Positions 30,266 through 55,609 of a DNA stretch of 64,000 nucleotides are shown here, piece by piece (position 1 is the stretch's first letter; every line of letters starts with the position of its first letter). A program made the translations under genes and the position numbers. This DNA is from Ectocarpus siliculosus (lineage: Eukaryota; Sar; Phaeophyceae; Ectocarpales; Ectocarpaceae), in assembly GCA_000310025.1 (NCBI GenBank), contig FN649747.1, positions 726,454 to 790,453 of the forward strand, given 5' to 3'. The notes under the pieces are model-generated. The model was not told where the DNA came from. It saw only the letters and a list, made by a program, of their open reading frames with translations, and did no database searches.

Positions 30266-31988
30266 ATGGGAGCCGGCGCGAGCAATGGCAATGTCAGCTG
30301 GCACGATGTGCGGGACATGTCACCTCCTGAGCTCGCCGACTTTGTGAGAAACGAATCCAACTCTGCCTAGAAATATGTGGTCATGTCTCATGGCCGAGTT
30401 CAGCTTCATCTGAATTGATCGTGTGAAGTATCATAAGCGTCCCCTCAAATGCAATATGGAGTAGTGTACAAAGACACTTCTTATGTAGTCTATAGCCCCA
30501 AGCTCGCACAGTTCGGAATAAGTCGGAGGTTGCTGCGCACGTATGCATACCGCGTACAGCCGACGTCGAGCCATGGCCTCGTGTGCTGTGGGGGAAACAT
30601 GCTAAGGTACCCTGCACCCTCAAGATATTATCGCTGCTGTCACATGCTACCGAGCGATTAGTCATCTGCCATCCAAGCACACGCTGTGTTGAATCCCTTA
30701 TCTGCAGATGGCACAAACGTGCGATTCGAGCTTCACGAAACACTACCAAGCCATCATCGACAACGCCGTGGGGGGTGGTATCGTGTGTTCCTTGGGAAAA
30801 CAATCTCTGCGGACGTTCTTGACGGACATAAACATCACGCTCAAGCCGCAGCAGGACTTCATAATTGAAGGTCTCGACAAGCTGAACAAAACCACGGAAG
30901 TCGCTGTGGCCGCGCTGGAGGAAAGTGGGTCCCCCTATAAGCACACTGTCGTTCGGAACTTGAGGACACACAACGCAGCGTACGTTACCTTCACCAAGGT
31001 GCGGTTTGCGAACAAATATTACTCTGGTCGATTCACTTCCAAACGTGAGTCATTGTCAGTTCTGCTGCAACACTGGAGTGTGCGCGCTTGTGGCGTACCT
31101 CCTGCAGCAGTCAGATACAGATACACACGGAGTTTACTGAAACCTCGTCAAATGATCCTGGTACTTGCAACTTGTGGAGGGAAGGTGTTCGGGAGCGACA
31201 AGCATAGTCGCTTATTTTGGGCAACGGTCAAACTGTAGAGCAAAAATACATCGAGCCCTCGCTTTGGACTTTTGCGCGGACGAGTGTCGTACACGACACT
31301 GGTGTAGCAAGTGAAAGTTGACCGTAGGGGTCAGCGGTTGAGCACATTCCTTCACCTCCCGACAACTATCAGCCCCTGGTGTCTGATGTGAATGGTTTGT
31401 TTCTCTGGACAATGGGCTTTCAGGAGGGAGACACATTCCGTGGCGCAACCAAATTCGCCAAGGGCCTTCGAAGAACCATCGGTTCCGCATGGGATCCACC
31501 AAATGTGCCGGTGAACATCCGTTTGCGAGGCAGCGGCAGTTTGGGAGTCACCGGTGGGCCGCTCCTGCAAGAGGTACACTACAAGGCCCAACCGGCGCAT
31601 CTCCCCACCACCCATGTCATAGGCGTGCATATTCAATGGGAACGTTTATCCTGACATATATCTGTCGTTTGCTGTACCTTTGTGAGAATTTCACCATGTC
31701 CCGGCAACAACTTTTCGGAAAATGTACTCAACCTATCGCTATGTCGAAGTCCGCAGGTCTCCATTGCGTGATCACTACCTGATTCTGGTTGGTCTCCATT
31801 TGATGTTCAAACAGGTGGCGCAATCGCTGAATATGGTGTGGCTCATTTCCGCCGGAAGCCTTGAGGACCCTTTCTGTCTTATGGAGGTGTGCGCGGCAGT
31901 GCGGCAGGGAACTCCGGTGCTGCCTGTTCGTCTCGCGGGGGCTGGAATGCGGCCCCTTAACATACCGATCTGGACCTACTCGATCCAG
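30266..31988 (+). other. Myristoylation-type N-terminus, SAM-like and TIR domain exons
   Basis: Exon 1 encodes MGAGASNGNVSWHDVRDMSP: Gly2 and Ser6 match the N-myristoyl-transferase pattern, and W-x-x-V followed by a helix opens a SAM-like fold. It continues in exon 2 (YQAIIDNAVGGG, LRTFLTDINIT, FIIEGLDKL). The TIR domain starts about residue 110 (AAYVTFTK), with helix FAKGLRRTIG, strand VPVNIRLRG, and NMVWLISAGSLEDPFCLMEV followed by GTPVLPVRLAG. Glu197 (codon 31884-31886), in FCLMEV, falls where plant TIRs and SARM1 carry the catalytic Glu. The BB-loop region is divergent. Confidence 0.65.
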
Positions 31989-34900
31989 GTAAAGCCTTCG
32001 AGATCTGGGGCTACTACATCGAGTACCCTTACGGCTTCTTCTACCGACGACACTGCTGTCGTTGGTGACGCCAATACCAAGAATGGCCCGGGAAAATTGG
32101 AGAAAAGCAGCGATCTCAAGGGCGGCGGAGGAGGCAGCGGCGGCGGCGAGCACCAACTGGCAGCAACAGGAGTCGACGCGGGCAACACGGCAACCGAATT
32201 CAGAGAGAGAGGGCGGCGTTTGCGTCGTCGCGCAGTCGACGGGTTCTACGCGCAGCTCGCTCAGCGACTGCCTAAGCAAGTCCAGGCCGAGCTTCACCGA
32301 AATCGTTTCCTGGTGAAGGACGTCATCGCGGCCGTCCGCTCGTGTTTCGAAGGCACAGGAGAGAGCGAAACCGGCGACACAGGGCAAGCAGGCGCCGGTG
32401 CTACCGGCACCCGATCCGACAAAGCGGCGTCCGCGACGGTTTCCAAGGCGAGGGCGAAGCCACCAGTGTTTGACATATCGGATCAACCTGCTGAACACGA
32501 CATGCTTCTCACTGCGCTTGTAGGGGTCAACCGCCGGAATACGGGAAAGGCAAACGTCGAAGACGTTGCAAATCGTGACAAAGGGAGAGAATCTGGGTCG
32601 TCTTCGTGGAATTGGGAGCAGGTACCACGGAGTGCTCCGCTTGCCGGGCGCGCGCGCCTTACGGACGCCGTGCCCTGGCGGTCGGACGAGGAAGTTTCGG
32701 AGATGATCAAGATGGAAGAAGCGGAAGCAGACGATCTCGCGGGTGAGTACCGTAATGTCACCTATCTGCCTCAGAAAGAGGATGGAAGACCGGGTTGAAA
32801 CAACCTACTGGTATAATCGTAAACGCTAACGAAAGAGAGACAGACATAGATAGTACCGTCGTTGCTAAAAGTGGTACCTGCACATTTTCCAAGTGAACGT
32901 TGTTCCACACACTTTAAGGGATTCCCCCCCGAAGCTCGGTGTCTATAGAATCTGGTCGCTGGCATTCAGTGGCAATGTGGGGCGCTGTTACTCTATATCT
33001 TCTCGCACGCCTCTTGAAAGCTACTGAACTTGTGATCACACGTCAAGCGTCGGCACGTGGGGAAAGGCGGACTCGTTCCGGTGGAGCCAAAGCGACTGCG
33101 GGCATGTATACCGTGGTTAGAGGATTGGACCGTGAATTCACTCGTCGTTGTTTTCTTGGGGCTTGTGTAAACAGACCAAACGCTGCACGATCCTCGCTTG
33201 TTGATCAACGGTTGTCTTCACTTGTATCTGCCCGATCGATATTTCTCCTTCCTCAGGACTGTTGGTGAATGACATGCGGACCCATCCGAGCTCGGAGCAG
33301 CACCAGTGGGAGGGCTGCAAAGGGTTGGCAGACCTGGCTGCTAGGGATAGTGACGGTCTAAGCGCTGTGCGACGGCAGGGAGGGATTCAGGTGCTGCTAT
33401 TGTCTGTTGGGCCAGCCCTTGGGGCTCTTGATGAACCTGTAATACGTTTTATCGGTACGAGGGCAAACAAAAGAAACCGACTGTCTCTCAGGGTCACGAT
33501 TCAACACGTGATTGTACCGGCACCCTCTGGTTGCTATACTTTCCATAAGTTTGCTGAAAGAAAAAGGGTGCCGCATATGGTAGTAGTATGGGGGCACAAG
33601 AGACGACACAATCAAGGCTGACATGTCGTTGATTCTGTCGTTCTCCTTTTCTCGTGCCATTTTTCGTGCTCGACACACGCCACTCCTCCGTGTCAAACGT
33701 TCCCTGTTCCTTGGGTACAACTACGCGCTCGGTCTGTTTTCACCTATATTCCGTCAAGCTGTCAGGCTCCACGGCGCGGTTGACGTTTGGCGCGCCCCTG
33801 CGCAGATGCACACGAAATGTACTACGACAACGTGCAAAGCATGTGCTGCCACACACGAGGTCCACAACATCTAAAATCATGAAAACATACAATTCACGTG
33901 CAGGCCATCCTTGCCGCTCTCGCGGCATGCCCCAAAGATGCAGACGTACAGAGATGGGGATGCCAAGCGCTGGTCCCCCTGTTCAGCGACCCCATCGTGG
34001 CGACACCCTTCCGCCAGGCAGGAATCGCCGCTGTGATCCGAGCGCTCGCCGTGTTGTCCTGCTGTGAGGCGGCTCTGAAGAGTATGGGGGCTGTTGGCGG
34101 TGCAGGTGGGGGGAGCGCTGCCCGCGGCGGAAGGGCGAAGGCGACGGCGGCTCGCACGAGGTGGACTCGAGCCGTCAAAAAGGTCGACCTGTTTGCAGAT
34201 CGGTTTTGGTTGGTGCAGCTCGGGGCTCCGTGGTGCGAGTGTAGACGGAGCCGCTGTCGGAGAGCTTGACACACCACTCCAACCGTGTCTCCCCTACCTA
34301 TTCAGACTTCTTAGTTTGTAGGGTGGGTCCTTCTGGGGTCTTGTTGATCGCACGCAATGTAGTACACTGGACGCAATCTTTTACATTGACGCACGAATGT
34401 CGCGCGCGTATGGAACCTGGCGAAGAGAGCGCTGGTTTCGAATATCATAAGAAGGAGGATTCTTCTGAGTATCGAACACTCGTTGTTTCGGGTCCCCACG
34501 TGCTGTACGCCAGAACCGTGTGGTATTTTCCTTCCACCCACGATACCTATCAGCATGACCCCCCATCGCCAGTCCGCAGGCCCAAATCAAAGAGTAAGCA
34601 CGGTTTCGTTTCCCCTGCTTGTGCTCTGGAAATTGTCCCTGAAGCTGGAAATTTACCGCGTGAGGGAACAGAGACGTGCCAGCCTGGAGAAAAGCGAGGC
34701 CGCCGTAAGAGCGATCCAGAGGGAGGAAGAAGAACTGGTGAGGCACGTACATAAAGCGAGACCGCAGAGAGGCGACGTAGCGTTGTCGTGAGAAGCGCGT
34801 TTGGATTGTCCATGCCTCCGTTTCTCACATGCCGTAGGCGAGGATACACGTCTGGGTTGTCATGTTTTATGTGTGTTCATCCGTAAGCACGAGGCTTGCC

Positions 34901-37900
34901 TCTGGAGTACTCCTGTTCGATGTTGGTAAGGCTCTGACCCCAGCTTCGTGGTCGTGTTTGTGATACTGTCTCAGGCTAAAAAGATAGAGGCGAGACGAAA
35001 GAGCATCGAGCTTGAGCTTCAGAAAGAAATCGAAGCTGAGGATGAAGCAGCTGTGGCTGACGCTAGCGATGCAGCTGAAACTATCGATGCGGGTGAGGCT
35101 CGAGACAATACCAACAGCGATGAAGGTCCATCATTGGAAAGCGTCGATGCAGCAACCACAGCCGCAGCCGCAGGAGCGCGGGGCAGCATTGACGGAAAGA
35201 ACAAGGAAGAAGGCCGTACGGCGGCGGAGCAAACTACGCCGGAAGGGCAGGAGGAATCTGAGATTGAGAACAACGGAGACACTGAAGAGAACAACGGAGG
35301 CACTGAAGAGAAAAACAAAGATGACAGCAGCATATGTGATGACGCGCTGGCCGAGGAGCAGCGGCGCCTGGAGGAGCAGGACAGGCTGGAGCACGAGGCC
35401 GAAATAGCGAGGTTGAAAAAGTGAGGGGTAGAGCGCGCGCGGTTTTAATAATCGAGTGAGAAGACACCCTCCCGACCCTCGATGCACGATGGTTCCGAGT
35501 GGAGAGAAGCACATCTACAACAGTATCAATTAGTTTTGTTAGAAGGTGTCGAGGAAAACGTTTCGCGGTTATCTTGCTGTGACGAGGTGGATGGTTCTCA
35601 TAGCTAGACCGTGCGGCGGCGGCGGCGGTGGTTCGAGCACAACACTCTCGGCTTTGCGTTTTCTGAGACCCTGTGCAAATTATAGTGGCTCTGAACGGTT
35701 TTCGAAGGACGAAGGGGCATGCTGTTCGTCGTGACCGTCTAGCCTCCCACGGAAACCTCCTCGACAGGATACAAGATGCAAACAAGCTCGACCAATGGGC
35801 GATGACGGATGCCGACATCGCAATATACGACAAAGCTTTCTTTAAGCAGGACAAGGACAAGGACGGCTTCATCTCCCCACACGGTGATGGTCGTGTAGAG
35901 TACCAACCTAATTGTCGTTCAAAAGAGTGCTAGTCGTCCTCAAGGCAAAAATTCCTGTCGAACGTGGTGGAGTGTCTTGAGTTCCAGCCCGGTCATGTAG
36001 TTGCTTAATCAAGGAGACCAAATTTTGGTTGTAGGGGTGGTCTGATTCTCCCGCCGAAAAACAAGCTTGTAGTCGACGACGTGTGTTCTCGTACGAGAAC
36101 CCTGTCTCTCAGATCTTAGGGGTACTCTCCTCACATGCAGAACGATCTCGGTTGCGCTTTTGGGCTGATGCGGTCTTTCTTTGTTGTGTTCATGTTGAGA
36201 AAACGACACTCACCGCTACCCAGCACTGCCGCTTAGTGCCGGCCCATCCGGTCAGAATACCATGGTCTTAAACGTACAAACAACACTTTTTTGTTTTACC
36301 GACTTCTTGCGGCACCGTTCTACCTTGTCCATGGCCGTGTTGCCCGACGCTGTGGTTCAGAGGCGAAATCGATGTTTAAAAAGGCTCGCACGTCCGAGGA
36401 CGCTCGGCGACATATTTGGTGAGCGATTTGTTATCCCTTGCATTTGAGTCTATCCCGTGTGGTTGTGAATGGGATGGCAAACATTGGGCAGAGGGGTCAT
36501 TTCTCCATGTTCCGTTTGATGAGCTCACGCGGGTCCAGCGCCGCTGTTCTTGTTTCCGCTAGGATCGTTTTGCTTCCAGTCGATGAAAGGCGGCGCCACC
36601 TGATGAATTTTTTTGAGAAACTCGAGTGACACCCTCCAGTTGGTCTACGCCTTCGGCTCCATACTAAGCTCCGTGATCCCCGGTGGTTTCGAGGAGTGCT
36701 TACGCTCTTTTCTGCGGCAGTTGTGGGCCTACGTGGTGGATCGACGAAGAACTCGAAGCTAAGGTCCACCGGCCAGACGGCCCCACCCACCCAGCCACCC
36801 ACCCATCAACCGCTGTGCCCCGTCTAACCCCAAAACGAGCACTTCAACCTCGCTTTCACCGACCTCCATTCCGTTTGAAACGACAATAACAAAGGGAGAT
36901 GTGCGACCCGTACCGAAGAGGAAAACTGACCCAGCATGGCTGGAGGGTCGCGTACCACCTCGCCCGGTCCATGAAAAGCCGAAAGCTGGAGCTGCCAGAG
37001 GCTCTGCCTCTCTGCCTCTACCCCCCAGGCTTCGTTCCCGGCGCTTCCACACCGGCGGAGAAAGGAAATGACGCCGTAGATGCTCCCGAGGGCGGGAACC
37101 GCAGTCAAGCCAACAGAGAGGCAAATCGGAAGGGCGACAGGGGTTCTGTGGGCAACGGCGGTCCGGCAGGGGCGAATGAGGACCGTGGGGCTAGTGTTGG
37201 GGGCGGGGAAGGCGAAGCTGGAGGAGCCAAAGGAAACGTCAGGGGGAAGACGCAGGAGAAAAATAACGGAAAGGAGGGCGGCGGGATGTTCTCGAGAAAG
37301 AAACCAGCTTCGGCAAACTCAAGCACGAAGGGGAAGGAAGGCGGGAAGGAGATGGAGGCGATGGAGTTGCAAGAAAAAGTCAAAACGGAATCGGTTGGAG
37401 AGAAGGAAACGGCCGAGGTGGTGCTTGGTCCTTCTGAAGACATGGACAACGACAAGAACAAGAGGAAGACGAAGAAGAAGAAGACGAAGGCGACGAAGGA
37501 GAAAAAGGAGGTGGACACCAATGGTTCAGACAAGTATCACATGAGCGATGCGCAGAAAACCGGGTACACGAACGTATTCGACAAGCTCACGAAGGGAAAA
37601 CCAGAGAAGAAAATCGGCGGTAAACAGGTGCGATGTAGCCTACCGTCAACACCCTGCAATGGATATACTTCGTATGGGAGAACGTACAGAGAGAACACTT
37701 GTGTCATTGTCTTTTACAGCGTGTTCGTCAGACTGCAAAGCGTTCAAAACGTAAACTGTTGATGAAACGTTATGACAGCTGTCTACTCTGCAAGATGTGC
37801 AGTGCCAATTGATATTCTCGATCCAATGGTCGACAACCACCTACCGATTGGCGGACCGAGACTAGGAAGATTGTGTTCTGCGTGAAACCTTTGGAGGAGG

Positions 37901-40900
37901 GCTATTGTATTCGCAGGTGTTTATGCACACGACATCGTCAATGCGTAGAAAGCTCCTCGGCGTTGGATCCTTATCTAGGAGCACGAACAATTCGCGGTCT
38001 CGAAAGGGATGCGTGGTCGAATGTTCTAACCGAGTAAGGGCAGCCAACAAAAGACATTGCCTGCATCTTCTCGTGGCCACAATACCAACAAATCCCGTGG
38101 ACGAGGCGGCAGGCCGCAACGATGCTGGCAAAGTCCGGGCTGAGCAAGACGGATCTCGGCCACCTTTGGGCCATGGCCGACGCCGATCGGGACGGCAAGC
38201 TCTCCCGACACGAGTTTGCCGTGGCCATGCACCTCGCGGCCCGCGCCGTTGGAACTCCGGCCCTGGCCTTGCCCAGCGTTCTACCCCCGTGTCTCGCCGC
38301 GGCTTCTGCCACAGAAAACGAGGGGAATAGAGAAGGCGACGGCCGCGTGGCGGCGGCAGAGGAGGCGGGAAGTGTCGTGTTGGTTGACGACACGAGTTCG
38401 GTCGTGTCGTCCCTGGGGTATCCGGAAGGTCTCTCGGACGTGGACTCTGAAACGGGGGGGGATGCGGCTTCGGGCACTCGCGATAATGCTCCCGAGAAGG
38501 CCACCGGCGAGGAGGAGAAAGGCCGCCAAGAGTCGAAGAAGGGGGTGGCATCGAGCGATCCCGTGCCAGCAAGAACCGACGAGATGCCGGAAAAGATGAC
38601 AGGCATGACCAAGAAGGCACTAGATGAAGATCATGCGCGTGGGCAGAAGGACAAGAAGGAGGCAGTGGCAGGTGATGGAGAAGGAGAAGGGAGCGCGAAA
38701 ACGAGATCATCCAGCGAGGAGAAGGAAAAAGAGGGGGGGTCGGAGTATCGCATGAGTGATCAGGACGCCGCTCGGTATGACAAGGCCTTCAACAAGCTGG
38801 TCAAGGGCAAAGGGGTCACCCTGGGCGGAAAAGAGGTGGGTGGGGGGTGTATGGGTGCGTTCGCTCACTTAGTTTACGCTCTCTCTACAATCCGTGGCGA
38901 ACGATGTAAGATCTAGATATCTCCATGCGCAGGAAAATACCTCGTACCAAGCAGTCCACTTACGCAAAATCTCGCGATGAAGCTGACGATCTATTCCGTG
39001 ACCATCTCGGGGGGCGAGCAGGCTGCGGTGGTTCTCGCCAAGTCCGGGCTGGGGAAGAGGGATCTCGGCCGCCTGTGGGCCATGTCCGATGTCGATCGGG
39101 ACGGTGCTCTCTCCAGAATGGAATTCTCGATCGCAATGCACCTTGTCTCCTGCTCCGCGAAGAAAGGTCTCCCGGTGCCGAGAGCCCTGCCGGAGAGCCT
39201 CGGTGCTCTCCTCCCGCAGCCGGAAGTGCAAAGCGAAGAAATAGGAAATGGGGTGGCCACTTCGGCGGAGGAGACGACCACCACCACAGGCAGCACAAAC
39301 ACCAGGGAGAAGCTTGAAACCCCGTCAGCCAGTTCTGACAGCGGAGGAACCAAAGGACGGAGGAACAAACGTGGTGCCGTTGCTGGGAAGAAAATGGCTG
39401 AAGCGGTCGAGGACAATCAAGGACGGTATACCGGCTATGACAACAAGAAAGCCGGGACCATAGCAAGAACGAAGAAGGAGGGGGGGAAAGGGGAGAAAGG
39501 GAACAAGAATGGGTCAAGAAGCGCGGCAGCGACGACCGAGAAAGAGGCCGGATCGTCAAAGAAACGAGGCTGTGGGATGGTGTCTTCTGCCGCTGTCGCA
39601 ACAACAGCAGGGGAAAGCGAGACTTCCGCCGCTGCTGAAGATGGCATCACGGGCGAGACAACAAACCATGCTTCACCAGCAGAAGCCAGTGGCGGAAAGA
39701 ACAAGAAGAGGAGCAAGAAGGCCACACCTGGAGACCAAGACCAAGAACACCATAAGGACGACAAACACGACACTACCACCGCCGCCGCCGCCGCCGCCGC
39801 CGCGAAACGGAGGCCTGCATCGAGGGATAAAACTTTGGTGATGGAAGAAGCTGGACGATTAAAACCATTGGAGAAACCCCAAGCGCCGAAGAAAAACAAA
39901 AAGGGAAAGTCAAGCAGCCCAGCAAGAATAGCAGACAAAGTGGGTAGCGCCGGAGAAGCGGAGGAAAGTGTTTCTCCCGAGCCGGACCAACAGAGTGGGT
40001 CAGACAACGACCATGCGAAAACTCTCGCGCTCGTCTCGGTGCCCGAGGAAAGGCGTGAGGGACGGCTGACAGCGGCCAAGGGTGGCAAGTATGTCGCCGA
40101 GGTTGCGGCAGGAAGTGTAGAAGGGGACGCTGATCGTGCAGAGACGGAGACGGAGGGAGAGGACGCCAAGACACCGACAAAGGAAAATATGCCGCTCTCC
40201 AGAGAGGAGAGGGACCAGCTTTACGGCATGTCCACATCGGAGAGGGCCGGATACGACGTAATCTTCATGCAGGTAGGTTCTTTCGCTTATTGAATTTGTT
40301 GACTGGACTGAAGATCACCATTACGGCTAGGCACAGGACAAATGGATTTGAAAAAGATTTTAATGCTGCAGCCTTCTTCAACGTTCCTTTCCGATCAAGG
40401 TGAGCAGTGGTCGGCCAGAGCGACGGTAGCACAGAGCAATCGTGAATGGTGTGGTTGTTGACTACCGTTTCTATGAGAAGGCGTCCAACTGACAAGAACT
40501 AGTTGTCGGCTATGGTGAGGATGAAGTAGGGAGTCACATGCCCGCATCGTACAGGTCGTTTACAGTAGCAACGCATTACTACGAATACCGAAGATATTTG
40601 GACCTTCCATACTAAACTTTGACCCGCTGGAACATCCGATAAACGATTGACTTGCGGATTGCTCTCTCTCTCGCTCTCTCCCTCTCTGTGCGCCCCATCC
40701 TTCTCCCCACCCAACCCCCGCCGGCAAAAACACGCGCGAACCAAAACCACCCCCGCCATGCAACTACCGCACAATCTATAAGATCGACGCGGACCACAAT
40801 GGGACAATCGACGGCCGTGAGGCGGCCAATCTGCTCTGCAAGAGCGGCTTGACGCGCGCGCAGCTTTCGAAAATATGGGGCCTGGCGGACGCGAACGACA

Positions 40901-43900
40901 ACGGGGAGCTGGACCACGACGAGTGGGCCGTGGCCTTGCACCTCTGCAGGTAAGGGGAGGAGACGCTCGGACGAGAAGAGCCGTGCGACCTGTGCTTGAG
41001 GGTTCGCGTCTCCGTAGACACATGTACCTGTGGCTGGCTGTTTGCCCCTCCCCCCCGGCGTATTGCAGCAACCTTTCGGCTGGACTGGCACCCCCCGCGA
41101 TCAGTTCCCCGGGAGGCGGCGTCGCAGACGACAACTTGTCTCGAGCATGGGTGCCGAGTTCCCCTGTCTCAACCGTTCCAACTCTCATCTGCCCCGCCGC
41201 TCCAGACACTGGGGGCGGCCTCTGTCATCACCCTACATATCGAGATACCGCCCACAGGGATTTCATGTACCACTTCGTGGCCATGCTCCGGACGTTTGGA
41301 GGGATTTATTCGCTTTCGAAAGATACCCTCCAATGTTGTCCGTCGTGGATGCAGGTGTGTCGCTCACAAGCACCTTCCCTTGCCGGAGACCCTCCCTCGA
41401 AGTCTGGGAGGGCTAGGTTTAGCGGGAGGCCCCGACGACGATGAAGAACAGCCTGACGGCGGCAGAGACCAAGGCCCGAAAGGCTCCAAGGCCATACGGG
41501 AAGCGGAGCAGGTGCGCCCCTCCCTCGAGGGGTACGTGTGTGCCCCTTGGTTTTTCTTGGGTCCGTACGTTGTCCGTCTTTTTGTCTGTACGGGGATGAA
41601 GTCGAACGCTGGCGCAATTTTCGGTCCCCTGATATTTTCGGTCGTCTGCTTCGTCATCAGTCGTGCCGTGCGGACTGACTTTTGTGAATTTCATCACATG
41701 TGGCCCGAAAACGTTACGCGTCCAGTATTGTCATTCCCTGCATATATAACACCTTCAGCTTGAGGTGCTTTCTTTCGCAGATATGATAAGAGGCGACGCC
41801 CCTCTTTGTGTTACTTTGGTTGCCGTCCCTTCTTCTGACACAAACCAATGGTAACAACGGACAGGCGAGAGAAAAGGAGAAAAAAGCGATGGCGGGGCGA
41901 GCGGTCAAGCTGAGGGAGCAGACGCAGGCGTTCCGGCTTGGGAAGGTCACGGCCGCGGCGTTCTACATCACACTTGCGGGGGCGTTTGGCGCGAAGCGGC
42001 ACACAATGATCCCCAAGGTACTGACGCACTATTCGCTCGCTCAGCATGGAAGGAGCCGAGCGACACAGTTGCTTCAGCACGGCCTTCGAGGCAGCGACAC
42101 GTTCTGGAAGCATGGGATAGGGCCGTAAACCCGATGATATGAGACGTACTGTATGCCGATTGGCTGCATAAACGACCGAAAATGCTGAACGTTGGAAGCG
42201 ATTTTGAAAGCGATTTTTGCACAGAAGTGTTGAACGTCCAGCACTAGTCCTGTATCGCGCCCCCCATCTTTCTCAAACCCGACACTCAAAGGTCGTCAGG
42301 CGGTGTGTACTAGCGTCATTCTCCTAGTAGTCAAGGTGTCCGAGTGCAAACCCTTCCACAGCAAACGGCTAGACTGAAATCATGCAAAGTGTATCCGCAA
42401 CTTGTGTCTCGCCTGCATGGCTGGTCACGAGCTGGCGAACATTTACGATCCGCTCCACTCCCTCGTGCCACAATCGGCTCGGCAACCCGTCGTCTAGTCC
42501 AGTTTCCATCCCTAACGTACAGCGGTAGTTTCTTGCAACCTCTCCTCCTGTCGCCCCCACTCAGGTTGCTCGCAGTCTTCCCCTCGACAGGGCACGAGCG
42601 CTGGTTGTGGCCGCCGGTCTCGGGGAAGAGGTTTTGGAGGACAACGAAGTGGCGGAAGCCAAGCTCGCAGCGTTGCGTCGGCGGCGGGTCGATGAAGCCA
42701 ACCTGCACGTAAAGGCGACGACCAGCAACGCTACCGCAAGAGACGTTAGCCTACTGGCCTGTCGCTTGGCAAACCGCCTGTCCGCCACGCTGGACGACGA
42801 GAACGGCGGTGCAAGGGGAGCGGAAGGGGTAGGCGGCGACACCTTAGGGGCGCAGACAAGCGTAGCGGCGGACATGGCTTCCGCCGGCGGGGTGGACGCC
42901 GCAGCGTTAATTTTTCGAATGTTCGGGGCTTTGGACTTAGAGCTCATGGTGGAGGCCCTCCAGTTCTCCCTGATACTGGCGCGAGCCTGCAGTGCCGTGC
43001 CAATAGATGAAGAGCCTGCATCCGAAACGTCCTCCCTGGCGTCATCATCTCACTCGCTCGTGGAGGATAGGGTGGTCGAGACCGCCCCTGAACCTTCGCC
43101 GTTGCTCCCGCTGCTGCGGCCCCTGTACGCGCCATCGGTGTGCAAGAGGGTCGCCGAGGTAGCGAAGCAGTTCTCACACAGCAGGAAGACTCAACGCCTT
43201 GTTTGTCTGCTCGTGGGTGAACTAGGCTCCACGTGTGGCGCTCCTGCGCGCCGGTGTTTCGCCGACTGCTGCGAGCCGATTGTCGTGGCGTCGGCGGGGG
43301 GGCTCGACGAGCACGCCGCCAGCGACAGCGACGGGAGTAGCGTGCTCGGTGGCACAGGCGGCGGCGGAAAAAACGGGTTATCGACCTCAATCGTAGCGTC
43401 GTCATTGCCGGGACAAGGAGTACGAGACGTGGCGTGCCAAGCGCTCAGCGTTCTCGCCCAGGAGTCAGGCCTCAGCCGCCGCTTGGTGGCGGCGGGTGCT
43501 GGAAAGGCCTCGGCCGTCGCCTTGGCCGCCGCCCCACGCGAGCACTCGGTGCAACTCTACGGGCTGGAGACGATCGCGCTCTTGGCCGAGAGCAGCTGCA
43601 GTCCCGGCATGTGGGAGAGCACTACCATCGACGCACCTTGCAGGCTAGCGGTACAGAGCGTGCAGACTTTCATCAGGGACGCCAACATTCACCGGGCGGC
43701 CAGGTTTGAAGATTGACTACATACAGCCCTTTTTTCCCCCACGTGTGAATCGATGCAATCATTCCGAAGCATTGTCAGCTAAATGGTTTCAATACCTATT
43801 CGAGTTGGGCCATGTTGTGCACAGACCGTGTTTTGGCTTAGCAAACGTGCGGAATACTGCAATTTCGTTGCGGATACTCAACACGCTCCGCGAAACCTTC

Positions 43901-46900
43901 CCGACCTTTGCCAACACAGTGATCTATTTCACGATCTGACTTGAACAAAGCAACCTTCACCAACCTCTTGACGCCTGGAACTACTTGCGAACTGCTCGTC
44001 AGCCGGGCAATTTTGGCTCTCCTCGTCGGCGATGCTGCCGGCGACGCTTCCCGGAGCATTGCCGCCGCAGGAGGAGCGACCGCGCTCGCTCGGGTTCTGG
44101 CGACGTCCCCGAACGTCAGGGAAGTCCAGCTCCCGGCCGTGCTCGCCATCAACGAACTCCTTGAAAGGTGCCGCAGCAGCTGTGCAGAGAGCGTACCAAC
44201 CCCGGTTTCCGAGCCCGGTGAAGAGGATGACTCAGTCTCGGCGGCGGCTGCAGAGCCGGGAAAGGTGGAACGCGAGCTAATAGCGGCGGCTGGGTGCGAA
44301 TTGCTCTGCAAGGTGGGTGCTCTGTCTAAGTTTCAGCTCTTTGTGTTGGATGGCCACAGAAGCTTGGACAACAAGTCGCACACAACGCCCCCTCCCCTCC
44401 GGCCCCATCGCCTGATCTAGTTCTGGCACGTAGCCATCAATGGCAGGCATGCATGAAACTGAACCCTTGCCTCTCCCCTTTCAACCTCTCCACTGATTGA
44501 AGAGCGCCAAGGCTTTCCCGAGAGACCGAGACTTGCGCCTAGGGTGTTTGAGGGCCATGGGAGCGTTATGCAGAGGAGCACGGCAAGCGGCCGTCGGTCG
44601 GCTCATCGCGGCCGGGGTCTGCGAGCAGGTGAGCGAGCACGCAGCGTACGGGGTTGGACAACTCCCGCCCATTGGTTCCCCGACAGAACACACATAAGAA
44701 GCGTACCTGTTGGGCTTCCTTCAGGCACGTCTCACCTTGCTGTGAGTGCTGAAAGGAGATACTCTAAACCCTGGCACGAATCCCAACCCCAACCACACCA
44801 AACCCTTGCGCCCCGAGGTCCAAAGCGGTCCAAAATTCCAGCGACGTAACCCGATCAAATGGCACCCCTCCCGCTTTGGCCCTTGAACACCTTCCATCCC
44901 GGAACCGTTGGGTGCTTGCCACCGTGTGCGAGACATGCAGCTTATGAAAATTTTGGGCGCTTATCCGGACGACATCGAGGTGCGGCGGGCGGGCCTCGCC
45001 TTGCTCGTGGGCGTCTCGGAACACGGTGAGGGGACAACGGAGGCGAGCGACGACGAGACAGAGGAAAACGACGACCAAGACAACCAGATCACGACGGGTG
45101 CTTTGGCGAGTCGTCTCGGCTTCGTCGGGGCCGTCGATTTCGCCGGGGTGTGGCTGCGGCAAGTGACCGCCCCGACATGGGCCTGGGTCGCCGGCCACGG
45201 TGGCGGGGGCGGCGAAGAGGACGAGCTTGCTCGCGCGTGGGATCTGTTGATGTCGTGCAAAGCAGCCTTTCTCTTGACCCGGCACAGCTCCACCAATCGA
45301 GATCGACTTACCTCGATGGGTGCGATGGAGGCGCTGAGCAGAGCGGTCGCGCTGTCAGGGCGCAAGAACAATCTCAAGGTGGGGCTAACTCCCCCGGTGG
45401 GACTGCAACAAGACTCGACGCTGTCCGTCCAAGCGGAAACGCAACTCTGGGCCGTGCAAGCCTTGACAGAGCTATCTGGAGGGCAAGATAATGAGAATCG
45501 ATGTTCAGCTCTTATGCGATGCGGCGCGCTGCGCGCACTCTTAGCGGCCATGAACAAGAGCAACTCGGCCAGCCAGCTTCAACGCGCGGGATGCATGGCT
45601 CTCGGCAACGTTGCAAGTTGTTTGAAGCCGAAAGATCTCCAGGTAGTCGGCACAGAACCAGGAAAAACCAGACAGTACTCTTCCATTGGTGGGACATGGT
45701 TTGGCAGACACGCCGTTTGTCTATTATTCAAGCCACTTGTTCCGTCTTTCCACTCTAGGAATACGACGTGAGGTTCGAAAGTAGCGTTATTCTCGGGAAT
45801 GCGTACGGTTCGAAAACTTTTGAACATTTCTCGCCGTGTCTCTCCATGTGCAGGCGCTCGGGAGGAACGGGGGAGCCCAAGCCGTGACGGGTGCTTTTGA
45901 AGCTTGCCCTGGAGACAAAGACGTGGCCTTGGCCGGTCTCCTGGCTGTTGCGAAGCTTTCAATGAGCTCGGAGAACCGTCGGCTGCTAGGGCAAGCAGGG
46001 GTCTGTCCCATGATTTCCAAGGAGCTCCTCGACTTCTCCCACGACGAGGCCGTCGCGGAAGAAGGGTGCCGAGCCGTCACCAGACTCGCCGCGCTCTCCG
46101 GCTTCAATCGAACGGCATTGGGACACGCCCGCGCAGCCGAGGCGACGGCAACAGCCCTGCTCAAACATCCCTCGAAGCCGAGGGTCCAGCGGTGGGGCCT
46201 AAGCGCCGCTGCCGCCCTGGTGGCGGAGACGGACCCTTCGGGCAACACGGACAGGATCACGAGCGCGGGGATCCTAGGACTCGCCGTCAAGGCCCTCATG
46301 AAGTTCCGACACAACCCAACGGTCCAGGCCGAAGGGTTGAAGACGTTCGCCAAGGTGGCCACCTCAGGGAAGGACGGCAACGACGCCGTGTGGGCGGCCG
46401 GGGTGGTTCTCACCGTTGTGAGAGCGCTCGGGCTGTATCTGAACGACGCGAACGTCCAGCACTGGGGGGTGGCAACCATGCGCGCCCTCACGGGGAGCGA
46501 CGACCGGTGCGATGTTTGGCGGGGAGCCGGGGCGCCAGAAGCCGTCGTGCGGACGCTGGTCGCGTTCGGCCGGGATGGGACCGGCCGCCACGCTAGGCAC
46601 GACGAAGAAGGGCTGGGCAGGGCTAGCGAGACGAGGCCCTGCACGGCCGAGGAGTCGCTGTGTGTGCAGTTCCAGGCCTGCGCCACTGCTTTCAACTTGG
46701 CCATGTCATCGCCAGACGCCAGAAGGCGGATCGTCCGGGAGGGCGCGGGCGAAGCCCTCGCGGGCATGATGAAGAGTAACTCTTCGAACCAGGCTGCTCT
46801 GCGGGGGGCGCTGGCGACCCTTGCCGCTCTTTCCGCGTCTGGGGTAGAGAACCGCAAGCGTCTGCACAGGCAAGCAAGGAGCCCGCTTCCTGTAGCGGGT

Positions 46901-49093
46901 TCATTCACCTAGCCCCCGGGCCTCCCACGTGGGAAAAACGCACTTTCATTAATAGTCAATTGTCAAGCTAGGAAACTAGTTGTTGGTTAACAGGTGCCAG
47001 AGAAAATTAAGGCCATCGAGGTCGACTTCTAAATTTCGCGAAAGGCGTGTGTGCCATGTACATTTTTTTTTGTGACGTGACAACCAATATACGGTTCGTC
47101 GAAAAAAGAGAGATTACACTACCAAGCCGTTGCAATCTATTGAGGTTAACCACCAAATGTGTGCCACTTCTTGTGACATCGCGGCCGAAGATACAAAGGT
47201 GGCGTCCCAAAGGCAGTAGCCTCGGCGCTGGAGTCGTTCCCCGAAGATCGGCGGGTGCGATGTGAGGGAGCCCTCACCGTCCAGAACCTAAGCCTAACAC
47301 TGGGAGGAGCGAGAGCGATGACGAAGGCTGGCGTCGCGCCGGTGATCATCCGACTGCTACGAACGACGTTGGAAGAGTCGTCTTTCCCGACGACCAGCGA
47401 GAGAGAGGGTGAGAGGGAGGAAGGACCCACCCTCAATGGCGCAATAGCGAACGGACATTCAGGCGGCAAGCAGGCCGACCGCGACGGTAAGAAAAGAGCC
47501 TCAGGACCAATTTGTTTTCTACAGGGCTACTCGTCATCATCCCGCTCGAGACTGAACGGGGTTCCTGCTCTTGCCCACCACGCAGTTGGTGTTGCGTGTT
47601 ACGCAATCCTGAAAAATTGACACTGTTGAGCATTGGGATCAACCATAGGGAATGGATACGAATGAAGTAATTAGGCAAACACTCTTTGATGCCGCAAACT
47701 GTATGATGCACTCCTACCGCTTGCATGCACATGACAAACAGCTCTAAGCAAAAACCTTAACTTCAGCATCGCCAACCTACGATCTAACTTTTTGCAACAA
47801 CACGTGCACCAAAATGCAGTTATTGTGTACCTCTTGAACGGCCTGGCCAACATGGCGGCCGCCGACAAGAGCCTCAGTGATTTCATCGGGCGGCACGGAG
47901 CCTGCGAAGCGGTTGTTTTCGCCCTGGAGCACCACCCCAGAGACCTCCAGATGCAGGTCAGCAAGAGCTGGAGAAATCAGAGTTAATAACGCGATGAATC
48001 ATGAACGAAACACTGGTAACTCGGAATCTTGTGATACACAACGGCAGCAGCCCTCCCGAAAGAAATCTCGTTGACAGTCGCCCCCATACTGCCAACATCG
48101 CCGGTGTAGGCCTCCCACTCAGTTGAATTGTCACTCGTGTCATTCCCATTGTCGACGGCACATCCCCCCACGCTGCCCCAGGCTAGCGGGGTCAAGGCCG
48201 TGCGAGCCCTCGCCCTCGGCGGCTGCCGAAACGTCCAAGATTTGGCCCGCTTGCGAGGCCCCTCGGCGATAGCTCGAGCCCAGGGACTTTTCTTGCGCGA
48301 CCGTGAAATACAGCTCGCTGTGGGGGCAGCTATGGAAGCGTTGTGTCGGGGAGGCAACCGGGCCAACCGGGAGGCTCTTGTCGGCGCCGGGACCATCGTC
48401 CTGCTAGAAAGTGCCCTATCCCAGTTCGCCAGCGACGCGGAAGTTGTATCTCAGAGCTTCCGCGCTCTCGTTGAGATTGTTCTGGCCGGCTCCGGGCCAA
48501 AGGCAGTGATGGGTGCAGAGGGCGAGGACAATCAACGGTGTTCCAGAAGCGTTGCCGGCGTCGAGGAGGAACCGCCAGTGAAACGGTCGTTTTCTCTACC
48601 CCAGCTTACACTAACCGAGGGTAAAGCAGCAATCAAGGGTCCTCTACAACCGGGCGAAGATGCAGGTGGTACCGTTGGTGGCGTGGCTGTGGGTGAGGTA
48701 TCTTGTGCCGTGGGGATGGTACTCGCCGTCCTCGAGAGGAACCCCTGCCGTGAGGTGTGCCTTGAGGCGTTCTCTGCCCTTGGCCGCTTGCTCGTTAACC
48801 TCGGGGCGACGGACTCGGAGAGTGTGAGTGTCGGATCGAACGACGTCCGCGACCAAACCTACCAGAACAGAGTTGCCACTACAGATGATACCTCAGCTTG
48901 TCACAAGGTTCCTCACAATGGAATGAAGGGAGGAGTGAACGCTGCGGGAGGGTTGCTTCAGTTGGCGAAGGTTCGACATGCAGTGAAGCGGGCGCTCAAG
49001 ATTAACCGTTGTGACGATGTTGATCTAGCGTTAAGAGGTGGTCAAATTATCACGTTGACTACCGTTGCGAGAGGTCGGGCCCTTGCACAATAG
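30266..49093 (+). CDS. Giant SAM-like / TIR / ARM / coiled-coil / 4xEH / ARM protein
   Basis: About 24 exons. Read in phase: 30266-30343, 30708-30998, 31424-31573, 31815-32742, 33257-33438, 33904 to about 34160, 34648-34737, 34975-35420, 35768-35883, 36361-36418, 36895-37627, 38113-38835, 39022-40272, 40783-40949, 41355-41511, 41865-42017, 42565-43703, 44003-44312, 44503-44628, 44941-45642, 45854-46869, 47191-47486, 47820-47956, 48182-49093. The last 17 alone sum to 2,814 codons with no stop. The start, MGAGASNG, fits N-myristoylation. A SAM-like domain, a TIR domain, armadillo repeats, an acidic coiled coil, four EH domains with Lys-rich linkers and a long armadillo array follow. TIR domains of this class can cleave NAD; EH domains bind NPF peptides in endocytosis. 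Membrane-associated signalling or trafficking is inferred. The junction between 33904 and 34648 is unresolved, and two adjacent genes remain possible there. Confidence 0.72.
33257..34200 (+). other. First armadillo-repeat block of the giant gene
   Basis: Exon 33257-33438 (QWEGCKGLADLAARDSDGLSAVRRQGGIQVLL) and exon 33904 onward (ACPKDADVQRWGCQALVPLF, then RQAGIAAVIRAL) show the ARM three-helix pattern with the Gly-I turn. The second exon's 3' end is unclear: candidate donors lie at about 34039, 34105 and 34162. Confidence 0.6.
35768..40949 (+). other. Four EH domains with Lys-rich linkers
   Basis: EH1 (35768-36970) has EF loop DKDKDGFISPHE and IWEMCDPYRRGKL. EH2 (37540-38240) has GGKQAATMLAKSGL and LWAMADADRDGKL. 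EH3 (38750-39150) has GGKEAAVVLAKSGL and LWAMSDVDRDGAL. EH4 (40200-40949) has DADHNGTIDGRE and IWGLADANDNGEL. Each keeps the Trp of the NPF pocket. In EH2 and EH3 the first EF loop is replaced by a Lys/Gly stretch. Linkers of roughly 150-350 residues are rich in Lys, Glu, Ala and Ser, with a nine-alanine run near 39780. Confidence 0.8.
42565..49093 (+). other. C-terminal armadillo-repeat array of the giant gene
   Basis: Many ARM-type helical repeats, for example VQRWGLSAAAALVAE, VQAEGLKTFAKVA, VQHWGVATMRALTG, VRCEGALTVQNLS and IQLAVGAAMEALC. Typical Gly-(I/V/A) turns (SAGILGLAVKAL, AAGVVLTVVRAL) and acidic, Ser-rich inserts separate them. The intron after 46869 appears to start with GC rather than GT. 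Confidence 0.75.
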
Positions 49094-51525
49094 ATGAGGT
49101 AGAGCATGTAGCAGCAATAGAATTTATTAACCACTGGGTGTCCCGGAACCATATCAGAACCAAATATCCCGCCTTTGAGAATATGGGTCAGCTTGGGGGG
49201 GAGAAGTATTGCTGGAAATCCCTGGAGTTTCACCACCAGCGAGACAAAAGATTGTGGTTCTGCGTTTAAGGCTTGTAAACCACCCCAATTTTCGGCCGGA
49301 ATGATGCCGGATTGTTCACTCGGAATTTTGATAGGATGCTTTGAGTTCGTCATCAGGGCTGTTATTCCAATCGTTCGCGTACCACTATCTGGGTGTTATC
49401 ATCATGCGTTTGGCGTGCTCATTTGAACTCTTGGGCAATTGCAATCGAGGCGCCTCGAATCACAGAGGACGAACTGGACTCGTTTTCTCCGCAGAAACGA
49501 ACAGAACACGCGTCGATCGAGCCTAGTGTACTGGGTACTATTTGTTCTTGTAATATTCTTGTTGGTCGTCTCTTGCTGTTGTCTTCACATTGGAAACAGC
49601 TCCGATTTCTGCCCAGTACCGTCTCTAAGACCCGCTCTGGTCTGACTGACGTCAACGCCTTGCATGGGCACAATTTAACGGGTTCTTGCCGATCGATATT
49701 GATTTTGACTGGCGTTGAAACAACCAAGGGCACCAGGAACACACGAGATACAAAAGCCAGGTGGAAAGCTTGCGCAACAATAAATCCCATCGTTGTCGCA
49801 CGGAGGAGGCGTTTCTCTCCTACAGCAGTACCCCCTGACACCACTAGCAGCCTTGGACGTATCCAAATATAGCAGAGATTCTATGTTCATCGTAGCCTAA
49901 TTATCATACGGACCCATAGCCGCGATTGTGGAATACCGAGGATGGACCGCACCATCAGCCTACAACGCAATTAGACCAAGAAAAAAAATGGCTGTGAAAC
50001 ACCGCTATTCCTGTGTTGGGATCCTGACCCAAGTCTAGTCAGCCGAACGTTTCTATTTTGAAGTTCGCTTGAGGTGTTTAGGTTAAGGTGATCCGAAGAG
50101 GTAGCTTAGAGAGCAGAAGAAGCGACCTGGTGAAGTCTGGTGAAGCATGATCGATGTGTGTTCTGCGGCGCGAAAAGAAACGATGATGCCGAACAGGAAC
50201 TTGCAGCGGCCCAAAACCCTGTCCAGGAAAAAAAAAACAACGCAACCATTAGTCTCCCTCCTCTCGCACACAACCCCGCGGGAGGGCAGATCACCGAGCG
50301 ACTTCCACCCAGCCGCGACATTTAGTTAGAGGGGACCTGGCGTGTCGATCTTCTCGCCTCCTCGAAGTGAAATGCGCGCCTTCCGAAATCGTGGACAAGC
50401 CCACCAATCGGAGGCGCCAGCTTTTGCCGTACCGTCAGGTGTGTTTCGCTTCTGCTCTTGTATGCATTTTTCTTTCAACACAAACCCACACCTTCCTGCG
50501 CAACATCACCCCTTCCTGCCATCCGCGGCGAGTCAGTTGTGTTGTACTCGTGCCGTTTGTGCTAAGCCCCCCCTGTCGTGTGCCATTATTATTTAGCTTG
50601 CAGCACGGAATACCCCGCCGCAGTCTTTTCGGGCGGGAGCTTAACTTGTCGCGCTTTCAGAATCCCAGTACCATTACATGTAGCGTTCCTGTGACCAGTC
50701 CTCTAGCCGGGCTTATCATACGTAGAAGAAGCGATGCTGGTTGTTCGGGACTCATGCCGACGTCGCCCCTGGTATCTCGACGAACCTCAATAACACGTTA
50801 ATGCGGTACCCTCGCAGCCTATGTAGACTATGTGTGGCGACCAGGACCAGGGGTTCGAATATTCCCGGAGCTTTCCTTGCAACGGGAGTTTTCTCTCGCT
50901 TCCGTTCCTGCACACAAGCGCTACTCTGTACAGCAGCAGTTCGTGTGCACACGATTTACAGAAGAGAGTGCTGCAATCTTCTCGCGTTAAAAATTGAAGG
51001 AAGCACCGCAGGAGGGGTGGAGAGGAGGCGTCAGGGGGAGGAACCCTTCTGTGTGACCACGATTGGAGCTCCTATGATCCACACGGCAGAATGCTCTGAG
51101 TGCTGATTTTTTCAAGCTGGGCCAGCCAAGAAGCTCACTTTTCGTTCTTTCGCGTCTCATGCTGCCGTTTCCACATTTAGGCTTGGAACTACATTTAGGC
51201 TTGGAATTTTGTGGCTAATCTTAGAAGACAGTAGGGGAACGCCGGTGCCAGATTTTTTTGGAATCTGAGTTGATTTAGGTATTAAATGCTCAAATGGCGG
51301 CGTAGTGGGGGATACTTTCAGCTGAAATCAGTATTACTTGAAGTGTTTTTTACAGATTGAGCTGAAATTTGGTGTGCACCTATCTGGGACCATTGCGAAA
51401 AAAGTGATGGTAGTTGCAAGGCTCACATCATCTTCCATCTAAAGTTATTGCCTCATAAAAAATCCTATACAACACTCAAGATATTGCGGGAAAGTGAGGA
51501 TATCGCGATGTTCCACACCGGTTTT

Positions 51526-51895: not shown

Positions 51896-53868
51896 AGCCA
51901 ATAAATTTTTCCAGCACCGGGCTGTACAGTTTTACCACCTAGAGGACACGCGGCTTGGGGGATTGTGTACAACAAGTCAGACGGCGAGGAGAGGCATCAC
52001 ACAGCATATCACACAACGTGCCATCTTACCCAAGCATGACAGACCAAGGGTGCGTTTCACACAGCGGATCACTCAGCGGAGCCTAGGGCGACTACGGTGC
52101 GTTGCGCAGACGTTTGAGTGTTGTTTGTCCCCACTTGGCGTCCAGTATTGAGAGGGTTAATGTGATGACAATTTTTATCAAACAATGGTGTGTACACCAC
52201 AGACAGCCGGGGTGCCATCTCGTTCACAGCATCAACACCTTGCTGTAGAGGTATGCACGCGTGGTGCAGTGTGGGAAACCCGTGGAGAAGAGCTCACTTG
52301 TTATTTCTCGTGTGGAACAGCAGCAGCAGTACCTGTTGCGTTGGAGATCGGTAGGAACTGAAGCGAGTGGGGCAAGGATCCTCTGCTCAAGCAGGGGCTA
52401 CTATGATCCGGTCCCATGTTTTATCCTTCCGCGGGGAGTACATCTTCGCGCGCCTTCTAGAAGGAGTCATTCTCTTCTATTCTCCGCCTACATACAAGAT
52501 ACATGTATCTAAATCCTATGACATTGCGGATGATGAGCATGACTTTCGCCCCTCGCTGTTGTCGCAGCCGAAGCCTTTGTGACAACCACACGGTGCTGAC
52601 CCAACTGAGCTAAAAGGGGTCAAACTTTTGGAGGGGTTGGGAAACAAGCCGGGTCCGAGTTTTGGGAAGGATCACCAACAGAAGTTCTGATAAAAATGAC
52701 GTTTCATTTAGTGCATGTTTTTTGTCCACACGTGATTATTCCTTGCAGGAAAGCACACCCGAGGGTGTTTTTTGCTAGAAATTTCGCCGCATTACGATCA
52801 CGGAGCCCCCATTTCGCACCTCGTGGTACTGACGTGCACGGCTCGACTTGCACTCACACGAGCAGCCGCACACAGCTGGTAAACACACAACCACAGACGA
52901 TACGGAGGTGGAGGAGGTAGACAACCCTGCTGGAAACAACCCTGCTGGAAACGGCGTGGCTCAGACGGTGCCAGCAAAGTCTTCGCCGGCGACTCCACGC
53001 GCGATCAAGTTGTTTTTGTGGAAACAACCCGCCACCCAGCCGAGCAATGAGCCTCCATCAGCACCTGCCGCCGGAAGTCCTGCCAAAAGGCCCGCAAAAC
53101 AGGCTCTGCTGAGGTCCGCACAACAGTGTCGCACATCGGCAGCACTCCGTTTTTATCACACATCCTCTTGGAAGAATGTGGGAGCGGTAGTTTGTTTGCA
53201 AATTTGCTATCACAACCTTTTTCTTTTATCACAACGAACCCCTGGTCGCGAGCTTCGTCCACGTGCACTTTATCACGACGGTGACACAAGTTAGCGCACA
53301 CCCCTTGTAGGATAGCACCTCCGGTGATACGTTTGCTGAACTCCAATCATCTTATCACCGCCGTGCGGTGTGCTATCTTGTGTCACTTACGGTACCGGCC
53401 GGACTTGTCCGAGGATAAACGTTTTTTGAGTCAGAGCAGTAAAATGAAAACGAGAGACTGGCATGCCTGCTGGACAGAGGTAGCACGCGGAAATGCTGAG
53501 ATTAGCTGCCGAAAGTTTCTTGTTTTCGTTGATTCTTACGTGTTGACGAACGCCTCCAACTCGCTTCCAAACATGGCAGCCCGCACCATATTTGAAAACT
53601 TCCTTCTTACTAGTGTAGGATGCGGGGGTCTGCCTACTAGTGTAAGGCTTCAACCCATACACCATTTGGCTTATTTCGTAGGGTTGAGAAGATAGAGAAA
53701 CGTAACACGTCTAACTATTGTAGAAAGCCTGAAGAACATTTTCATAGTTTTTTCGGCCCTTCGCGTTGCTCTTTCTCTGTCTCTCTCTGCTGCCTCCATC
53801 TGCCGTCCACAATGAACGTCAGGGCACAACACCGGTACCAATACCAGCAACATTGACAACGGAGGCAG

Positions 53869-55609
53869 CACGCGGTGCTTGGAAGCCATCGCCGTTGTGC
53901 TTTATCAATCATCGCCGAAGGGAGGGATCAGAGAACCCCCGTTCATCTCATCTACGCTGCAGCTGCAATTGGCGTGCTTGGAACTATGCGGGGTGTGTCG
54001 AAGCCTGCCATCCCTGCACATAAAGGTGCCGGAAACACTGCCCGCAAGCTTGTGGGTTGCTCCGACTTCCTCCGACGACGCCGGCGATCACGACAACGGC
54101 GTTCAGTGGCAGGATCTATTTTCCACTCTCCGTTCCTTGCGCCGATGGTATCCCCGCGGGGACTCACGAGGGGGGGACGGCGTGACCCTGAACCGCGTCC
54201 CGCCCCTTCTCCCATTCAGCGTAACATGTGGGCTTTCGAGCTTGCCTCGCTCTAGTAGTAGTCGCACGGCCGACCTGTGGACTGGCGTGGAGCGACTGCG
54301 GCTGGAATTTTCTCTCTCGGAGACGAGCAGTTGGAAGGACTCGTCTGTGGTGATGCTGCCGAGAAGACTCAAGCAGCTTCTGTTTGTCTCGAGCTCCTTC
54401 GTTCCGAATTTTCAACTTCCGGTGGCGGTGTTGTCGTCACCGCCGCCGCTCCTTCTCAAGCTATTTGTCAATGGGAGTTTCGAGGTACCGGCTGCAGACG
54501 TTCCGTGGCCCCCTTCTCTTACCCAGCTTTCATTCGGAGCTAGGTTTCAACAGCGCTTGGGGAAAGGGGGGGCTGGCAGTGATGGTGATGGTGGTGGTGG
54601 TGGTGGTGTGATCAAATGGCCAGTGCACCTGCAGCAGCTGTCGTTCTGGCATCACTTCCAAGAGCCCATTGCCGAAATCAATTGGCCGGCCTCGCTCGAG
54701 CGCCTGGCGTTTTTTGGGCCTGGCTTCAACGAGCCCCTTGCCGGCGTGGTGTCTTCCTGGCCATCGCTGCGGAAACTCGTCCTCGGGAACACATTCAACC
54801 AACCAATCGCCCAAGTTTCGTGGCCAGCCTCCCTCCGGGCACTCAGGTTCGGGGACACATTCAACCAACCCATCGCCCAAGTATCGTGGCCAGCCTCCTT
54901 GCAGGAGCTCTCCCTGGGCGGAGGATTCGACGGTGCTGTAGAGGAAGTCGTTTGGCCTTCTTCGCTACGAAAGCTGGATCTGGGCAAAAGGTTCAGCCAT
55001 CCCATCGCCCAAGCTACGTGGCCAGCCTCCCTGGAAGAGCTGGCGTTTGGGGGTTGTGAGGGCAGGTTCAACCAACCCATCGCCCAAGTTGCGTGGCCGC
55101 CCTCCCTCCGCGCAGTCAGATTCGGGGAATGGTTCAACCATTCCATTGACCGAGTCTCTTGGCCCAATGGGTTGCAAGAGCTCTACTTCGGGGGTAAGTT
55201 CAACCAACTCATCGCCCAAGCATCATGGCCGGCTTCCCTTCGAGAGCTCGCATTCGGGACAGATTTCAACCAACCCGTTCATCAAGTGTCATGGCCAGAC
55301 TCCCTCCAGAAGCTTACCTTCGGAAAGTACTTTAATCAACCCATCGCCCATGTTTCGTGGCCGGGTGCCTTGCGAGAGCTGACATTCGGGGAAAGGTTCA
55401 ACCAACCCATTGCCCAAGCTTCGTGGCCCGATGCGTTGCAGGAAATAAAGTTCGGTGAGGACTTCTCCCAACGGATGATCGGCACCGACTGGCCGATGAG
55501 CCTACGCAAAATATACATTAGTAGGCGTTCTGTTTCGGGGAATCGCGGATCAGGACGTGTATCCGCCCTCTGTGGAAATCGTGAGCTATCGCTGTTCTGT
55601 TATGTTTGA
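53869..55609 (+). CDS. FNIP-repeat protein, terminal exon (5' end unresolved)
   Basis: About 579 codons open to a TGA stop at 55609. From about 54655, some 13 repeats of about 22 residues follow the pattern F-N-Q-P-I-A-Q-x-x-W-P-x-S-L-x-x-L-x-F-G-x-x. This is a variant of the FNIP/leucine-rich-type repeat known from Dictyostelium and some giant viruses, here with Trp-Pro where FNIP repeats usually have Ile-Pro. Two or three degenerate repeats precede them, with a Gly/Asp insert near 54580. The N-terminal ~200 residues are Leu-rich and may be a divergent cap. The frame has no ATG between the upstream in-frame stop (53813) and 54353, so an upstream exon is likely; CAG at 53866-53868 could be its acceptor. 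The repeats probably form a binding solenoid; the partner is unknown. Confidence 0.72.

Follow-up and report, generated by a model that had tools for sequence, protein, structure and literature searches.

The window analysed here is a 64,000-nucleotide stretch of the genome of the brown alga Ectocarpus siliculosus (contig FN649747.1, positions 726,454 to 790,453), in an assembly of 189,456,909 bases and 492 contigs. A long chain of exons occupies its forward strand from 30266 to 49093. Upstream on the same strand are a DnaJ C-terminal domain (16499-17911, E 1.5e-14) and an EF-hand exon (23303-23854, EF-hand_1 7.7e-10) that is centrin- or calmodulin-like by eye; unread bases just ahead of the latter leave X residues in the frame 22667-23302. 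Downstream, a single open frame with FNIP repeats spans 53816-55609 on the forward strand (E 4.8e-52). The features of the chain are as follows.

30266-49093, forward: the whole exon chain; in the revised model, 24 exons encoding 3,503 amino acids without an internal stop
30266-30998, forward: exons 1-2, a MGAGAS myristoylation-type start (pattern at Gly2) and a SAM-like candidate (weak score with an own-genome SAM profile)
30972-31988, forward: TIR-like region of exons 2-4, matched by Pfam TIR_2 and a bacterial TIR profile in its C-terminal half only (31815-31988, with Glu197 in DPFCLMEV)
33257-34182, forward: short ARM-like block, exons 5-6 (ARM_LRRK2 at E 0.00066 with 18.5 bits, under the 26.2-bit cut-off)
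34183-34644, forward: junction, an intron in the adopted model, assessed by coding signal and splice-site scores
34645-35420, forward: charged, coiled-coil-like stretch by eye, exons 7-8, with coding signal in frame
35768-37030, forward: EH1, exons 9, 10 and the start of 11 (Pfam EH 1.9e-7)
37538-38310, forward: EH2, end of exon 11 and start of exon 12 (Pfam EH 8.1e-16)
38749-39201, forward: EH3, end of exon 12 and start of exon 13 (Pfam EH 3.3e-15)
40225-41405, forward: EH4, end of exon 13, exon 14 and start of exon 15 (Pfam EH 2.5e-16)
41865-44628, forward: exons 16-19, helical and partly ARM-like by eye, with no Pfam match
44941-49093, forward: long ARM array, exons 20-24 (ARM_LRRK2 8.2e-12, Arm 1.6e-4)

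The first model of the chain, rebuilt exon by exon, comprised 25 exons and 3,482 amino acids and was likewise free of internal stops; the revision extends exon 6 to 34182 and splices it to 34645. Translation begins with MGAGAS at 30266, the terminal stop codon ends at 49093, and the exons are in phase throughout. The in-phase joining from the myristoylation-type start to the last ARM exon proposed in the first-pass annotation, which excepted one junction near 34 kb, is reproduced as a stop-free chain of about 3,500 residues. Because splice sites were chosen to fit, phase agreement along the chain is weak evidence alone. Introns follow the GT-AG rule in 22 of 23 cases, the other (46870-47190) being GC-AG. 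The start of exon 23, placed at 47742 in the model, is uncertain; an alternative acceptor gives a start at 47820 that is in phase too. Third-position G+C is similar across both halves (0.65, 0.65 and 0.70). Ten segments were covered by the Pfam scan; the bulk of the inter-EH linkers and the later portion of exon 8 lie outside them. Each EH domain is interrupted by one or two introns, and these introns are backed by homology because the segments, once joined, score as EH.

All four EH domains exceed the Pfam cut-off of 22 bits for EH (PF12763), at 31.4, 58.3, 56.3 and 59.9 bits, and an invariant tryptophan is present in every one, which bears out the four EH domains first read from the sequence. 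This tryptophan forms part of the peptide-binding pocket of EH domains, and the four copies here may bind NPF peptides. EH4 has two full EF-hand loops by eye, and its closest sequence in the PDB is an Eps15 EH domain (E 1.7e-13). Across the host assembly, 14 EH matches are found at E<=1; 11 are over the cut-off, three of them in this gene. The segment that follows EH4 gave no Pfam family at E<=10 anywhere in exons 16-19, and its first helical portion (41865-42017 and 42565-42640; FYITLAGAFGAKRHTMIPKVARSLPLDRARAL) likewise matches none.

The long C-terminal ARM array is supported too. In it, both ARM_LRRK2 (44.6 bits, cut-off 26.2) and Arm (22.0 bits, cut-off 20.6) pass their thresholds, confirming the earlier assignment, and ARMC5 scores 39.1 bits, below its cut-off of 79.9. 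Against the PDB the array matches Vac8 (E 6.3e-5). A Foldseek search with an AF2 model of exon 21 (pLDDT 51) returned importin-alpha and APC with a best E of 0.02 and none at E<=0.001, which lends the array weak additional support. The ARM assignment for exons 5-6 fared less well: ARM_LRRK2 does match there, but below its cut-off. Taken as sequence, the four-EH/ARM part is established.

The TIR-like region near the N-terminus calls for a more guarded reading. Pfam TIR_2 matches the joined region at E 0.013 and 16.4 bits, below the cut-off of 28; TIR (PF01582) was not listed in the Pfam scan of the joined region, and no curated TIR cut-off was reached. A bacterial TIR profile, built from a seed TIR protein and 23 of its 24 bacterial relatives (one was dropped for stops), gives the query 17.0 bits, a value equalled by none of 10,000 shuffles (best 4.9). 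The seed was found by tblastn of plasmids with the TIR-like query, which gave two chance-level matches, including a TIR protein at E 3, so the shuffle test favours the query segment. The Pfam TIR_2 match is free of this bias, and the family had been named beforehand in the first-pass annotation. In hhalign the query reaches 88.4%, compared with at most 22.7% for 60 shuffles. These hhalign values, like those from Pfam TIR_2 and the bacterial profile, derive from the C-terminal half; taken alone, the first half of the fold scores -1.1 bits in the profile test, with 1,303 of 10,000 shuffles as good. At the Box 1 position the protein reads AYVTFTK where an excerpt of PMC7075850 gives the consensus YDVFISY, and neither Box 1 nor the rest of the first half matches. 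A conserved glutamate, Glu197 by count on the model, aligns with the TIR profile, and the same excerpt describes this residue as critical for NADase activity in TIRs (PMC7075850). The TIR assignment made at the outset is supported for the C-terminal half with its glutamate but not for the first half.

A single gene whose N-terminal part adopts some other alpha/beta fold, one helix of which resembles the TIR C-terminal half by chance, would account for several of these results. The match is confined to that half, the curated cut-offs are missed, PADLOC gave no match, and the bacterial profile was seeded from this very query in a way that favours the C-terminal half. Such a chance resemblance is nevertheless improbable given the unbiased match to a family predicted in advance and the aligned glutamate. 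It also sits poorly with the PDB search, in which 11 of the 12 matches listed for the region are TIRs, though nine of these are TIRAP entries and none is significant (E 1.1-2.1). The TIR-like part of exons 2-4 is thus likely to be of TIR type in its C-terminal half, including the glutamate, and it may act in NAD signalling or cleave NAD+. In the host assembly, a PF01582 search gave no match at E 0.001, and a PF13676 search at E<=10 gave this TIR-like stretch as the sole match (E 0.74); both searches treat exons singly, so a domain divided between exons could escape them. No further copy of the TIR-like part was found in the assembly, the window itself being the sole match. Using the TIR score to choose the link between exons 2 and 3 was rejected, the best of 77 possible links being nearly equal (17.1 for the best, 16.4 for the one adopted).

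Ahead of the TIR-like region, Gly2 of MGAGAS fits the myristoylation pattern, which is short and common, and the N-terminus may tether the protein to a membrane. A SAM domain had also been claimed for exons 1-2, and the curated profiles do not recover it: no Pfam SAM family appears at E<=10, and SAM is absent among the 43 PDB matches listed, the best of which is cyclin A (E 0.2). With a profile built on 12 SAM stretches found in this assembly, the N-terminal part scores 4.7 bits, which 23 of 5,000 shuffles equal, and its windows rank first along the entire protein. At most, these results suggest a SAM-like candidate. An AF2 model of exon 2 alone was discarded (pLDDT 48).

Whether these modules belong to one protein turns on the junction near 34 kb. 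With a codon model that had the exons from 34975 onward as its training set, the coding signal of exon 6 continues through 34108-34182, where none of 2,756 intron stretches scores as high, and drops across 34183-34266, where 12 of 937 coding stretches are as low. From ATG 34555 on, the sequence resembles non-coding DNA (0/936 coding stretches as low). Downstream of ATG 34410 the signal lies in between: 61 of 3,012 intron stretches reach it and 107 of 938 coding stretches score no higher, so a separate gene start there is possible. The fall in signal past 34182 and the apparently non-coding leader at ATG 34555 speak against the two simplest gene boundaries, and splicing out near 34182 is favoured. 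Phase agreement at this point was rejected as evidence because 132 direct links cross the junction in phase and free of stops; six micro-exon routes exist as well. When splice-site and codon scores are summed, the best direct link reaches 52.8, the adopted link 49.7 and the six micro-exon routes 34.5-52.1. The two-gene arrangement reaches 48.9, from 29.0 for a first gene running to 34266 and 19.9 for the best second-gene start (ATG 34410), and one gene and two are tied on these sums, which differ in their number of terms. The leading links have weak acceptors: the 12 best of the 132 links use sites scoring at most 2.6, compared with 4.3 for the weakest of 21 reference introns, and the adopted link from 34182 to 34645 has a donor of 3.4 and an acceptor of 0.9.

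The locus could instead hold two neighbouring genes on the same strand, a TIR-like/ARM protein followed by a large four-EH/ARM endocytic scaffold, and this arrangement is a serious contender with somewhat less than an even chance. The first gene would encode about 660 residues, beginning at 30266 and closing either at the 34269 stop or in a short terminal exon at 34580; the second would start near 34410 or 34555. The near-tie in scores speaks for it, as does the fair coding signal after ATG 34410. A further point in its favour is an in-phase splice from 34182 to 34580 (34580-34597) that ends the frame after five codons; the same splice could produce a short TIR-like/ARM isoform. Against two genes, neither the last 28 codons of the first gene nor the leader beginning at ATG 34555 resembles coding sequence, and the best start for the second likewise needs a weak acceptor, at 34672. 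A gap of less than about 0.3 kb would also be unusually tight here, because domain-bearing neighbours sit several kilobases off, although undetected genes could lie between them. One gene is rated slightly more likely than two. The original proposal of one protein accordingly keeps the stop-free chain, the coding signal up to 34182 and the similar third-position G+C of both halves on its side, but it depends on a junction with weak acceptors and a near-tie in scores.

Elsewhere in the assembly, a partial and rearranged copy of the 3' part of the gene and its downstream flank lies in contig C476 (814000-823000, 9,001 bases). Its six main DNA pieces share 78-87% identity with segments of 43876-45228 and 48138-50202 in the window, and the last exon, where aligned, contains two in-frame stops. 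The TIR-like, EH and 34-kb parts are absent from the 9,001 bases fetched. This is a decayed segmental copy. Short stretches of the window at 13027-13131 and 16020-16198 match the same region near its positions 5885-6017, beside the copied gene part, and are probably a dispersed repeat. In viral contigs, 6 and 9 stretches fit a pattern and none was confirmed as a relative; with the EH query, the same was true of all 591 stretches from bacterial and archaeal genomes.

Taken together, the locus is read, with a probability of roughly 0.4, as one giant gene for a scaffold roughly 3,500 residues long that carries a possibly myristoylated start, a divergent TIR-like domain, an ARM-like block, a coil, four EH domains and an ARM array. 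The stop-free chain, all four EH domains, the ARM array and the C-terminal half of the TIR support this reading; weak acceptors, a fair start at ATG 34410, an unmatched TIR first half, sub-cut-off TIR scores and a codon model trained only on the downstream exons count against it. In such a scaffold, the EH domains would gather NPF-bearing endocytic partners on the membrane. By analogy, the ARM blocks may bind partners or keep the TIR-like domain inactive, and the EH domains together with the myristoylated start may hold that domain at endocytic membranes. Clustering on vesicles could then bring TIR-like domains together, leading to signalling or NAD+ cleavage. The fuller proposal, that a single protein unites a TIR-type NAD-cleaving or NAD-sensing domain with a four-EH scaffold and two ARM blocks and so couples vesicle traffic with TIR signalling in a genome where no other TIR was detected, is doubtful. 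If one transcript spans the locus, TIR signalling would be placed physically on endocytic membranes and would be testable in a single gene. If there are two genes, a four-EH/ARM scaffold beside a TIR-like/ARM protein, with the only TIR-like stretch detected in the assembly, would still be notable.

Among known proteins, the candidate resembles the scaffolds Eps15, intersectin and plant EH1/Pan1 in that it has several EH domains, each with the conserved tryptophan. The PDB matches of EH4 include, besides Eps15, intersectin, EHD and a plant EH protein. The candidate differs from these scaffolds in its four EH domains (Eps15 has three and intersectin two), its long ARM array and perhaps its TIR-like part. 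A further difference from Eps15-type scaffolds is that the entire model holds one DPF motif and no NPF motif. Vac8, which has a myristoylation-type start, shares this feature and an ARM array with the candidate, but it lacks EH domains and a TIR-like part and is much smaller. SARM1 also combines a glutamate-bearing TIR with ARM repeats in one protein, and its parts were at first thought to be present here as a set; with no SAM found by curated profiles, that set is not established. Its order, according to an excerpt of PMC8494770, is ARM, tandem SAM and C-terminal TIR. The candidate departs from that order, with its TIR-like part near the N-terminus ahead of both ARM blocks, EH domains downstream and SAM as a candidate. 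Choanoflagellate SARM1 homologues retain the glutamate, as an excerpt of PMC6040629 reports. No TIR-EH protein is described in the titles and abstract openings among the papers listed by literature searches, which does not imply absence from print. The red alga Pyropia has a protein of TIR and kinase (excerpt of PMC6928737), another algal TIR fused to a second module, although its partner is a kinase rather than EH and ARM. The present case is not a new kind of system; the architecture is new, and its domains are of known kinds.
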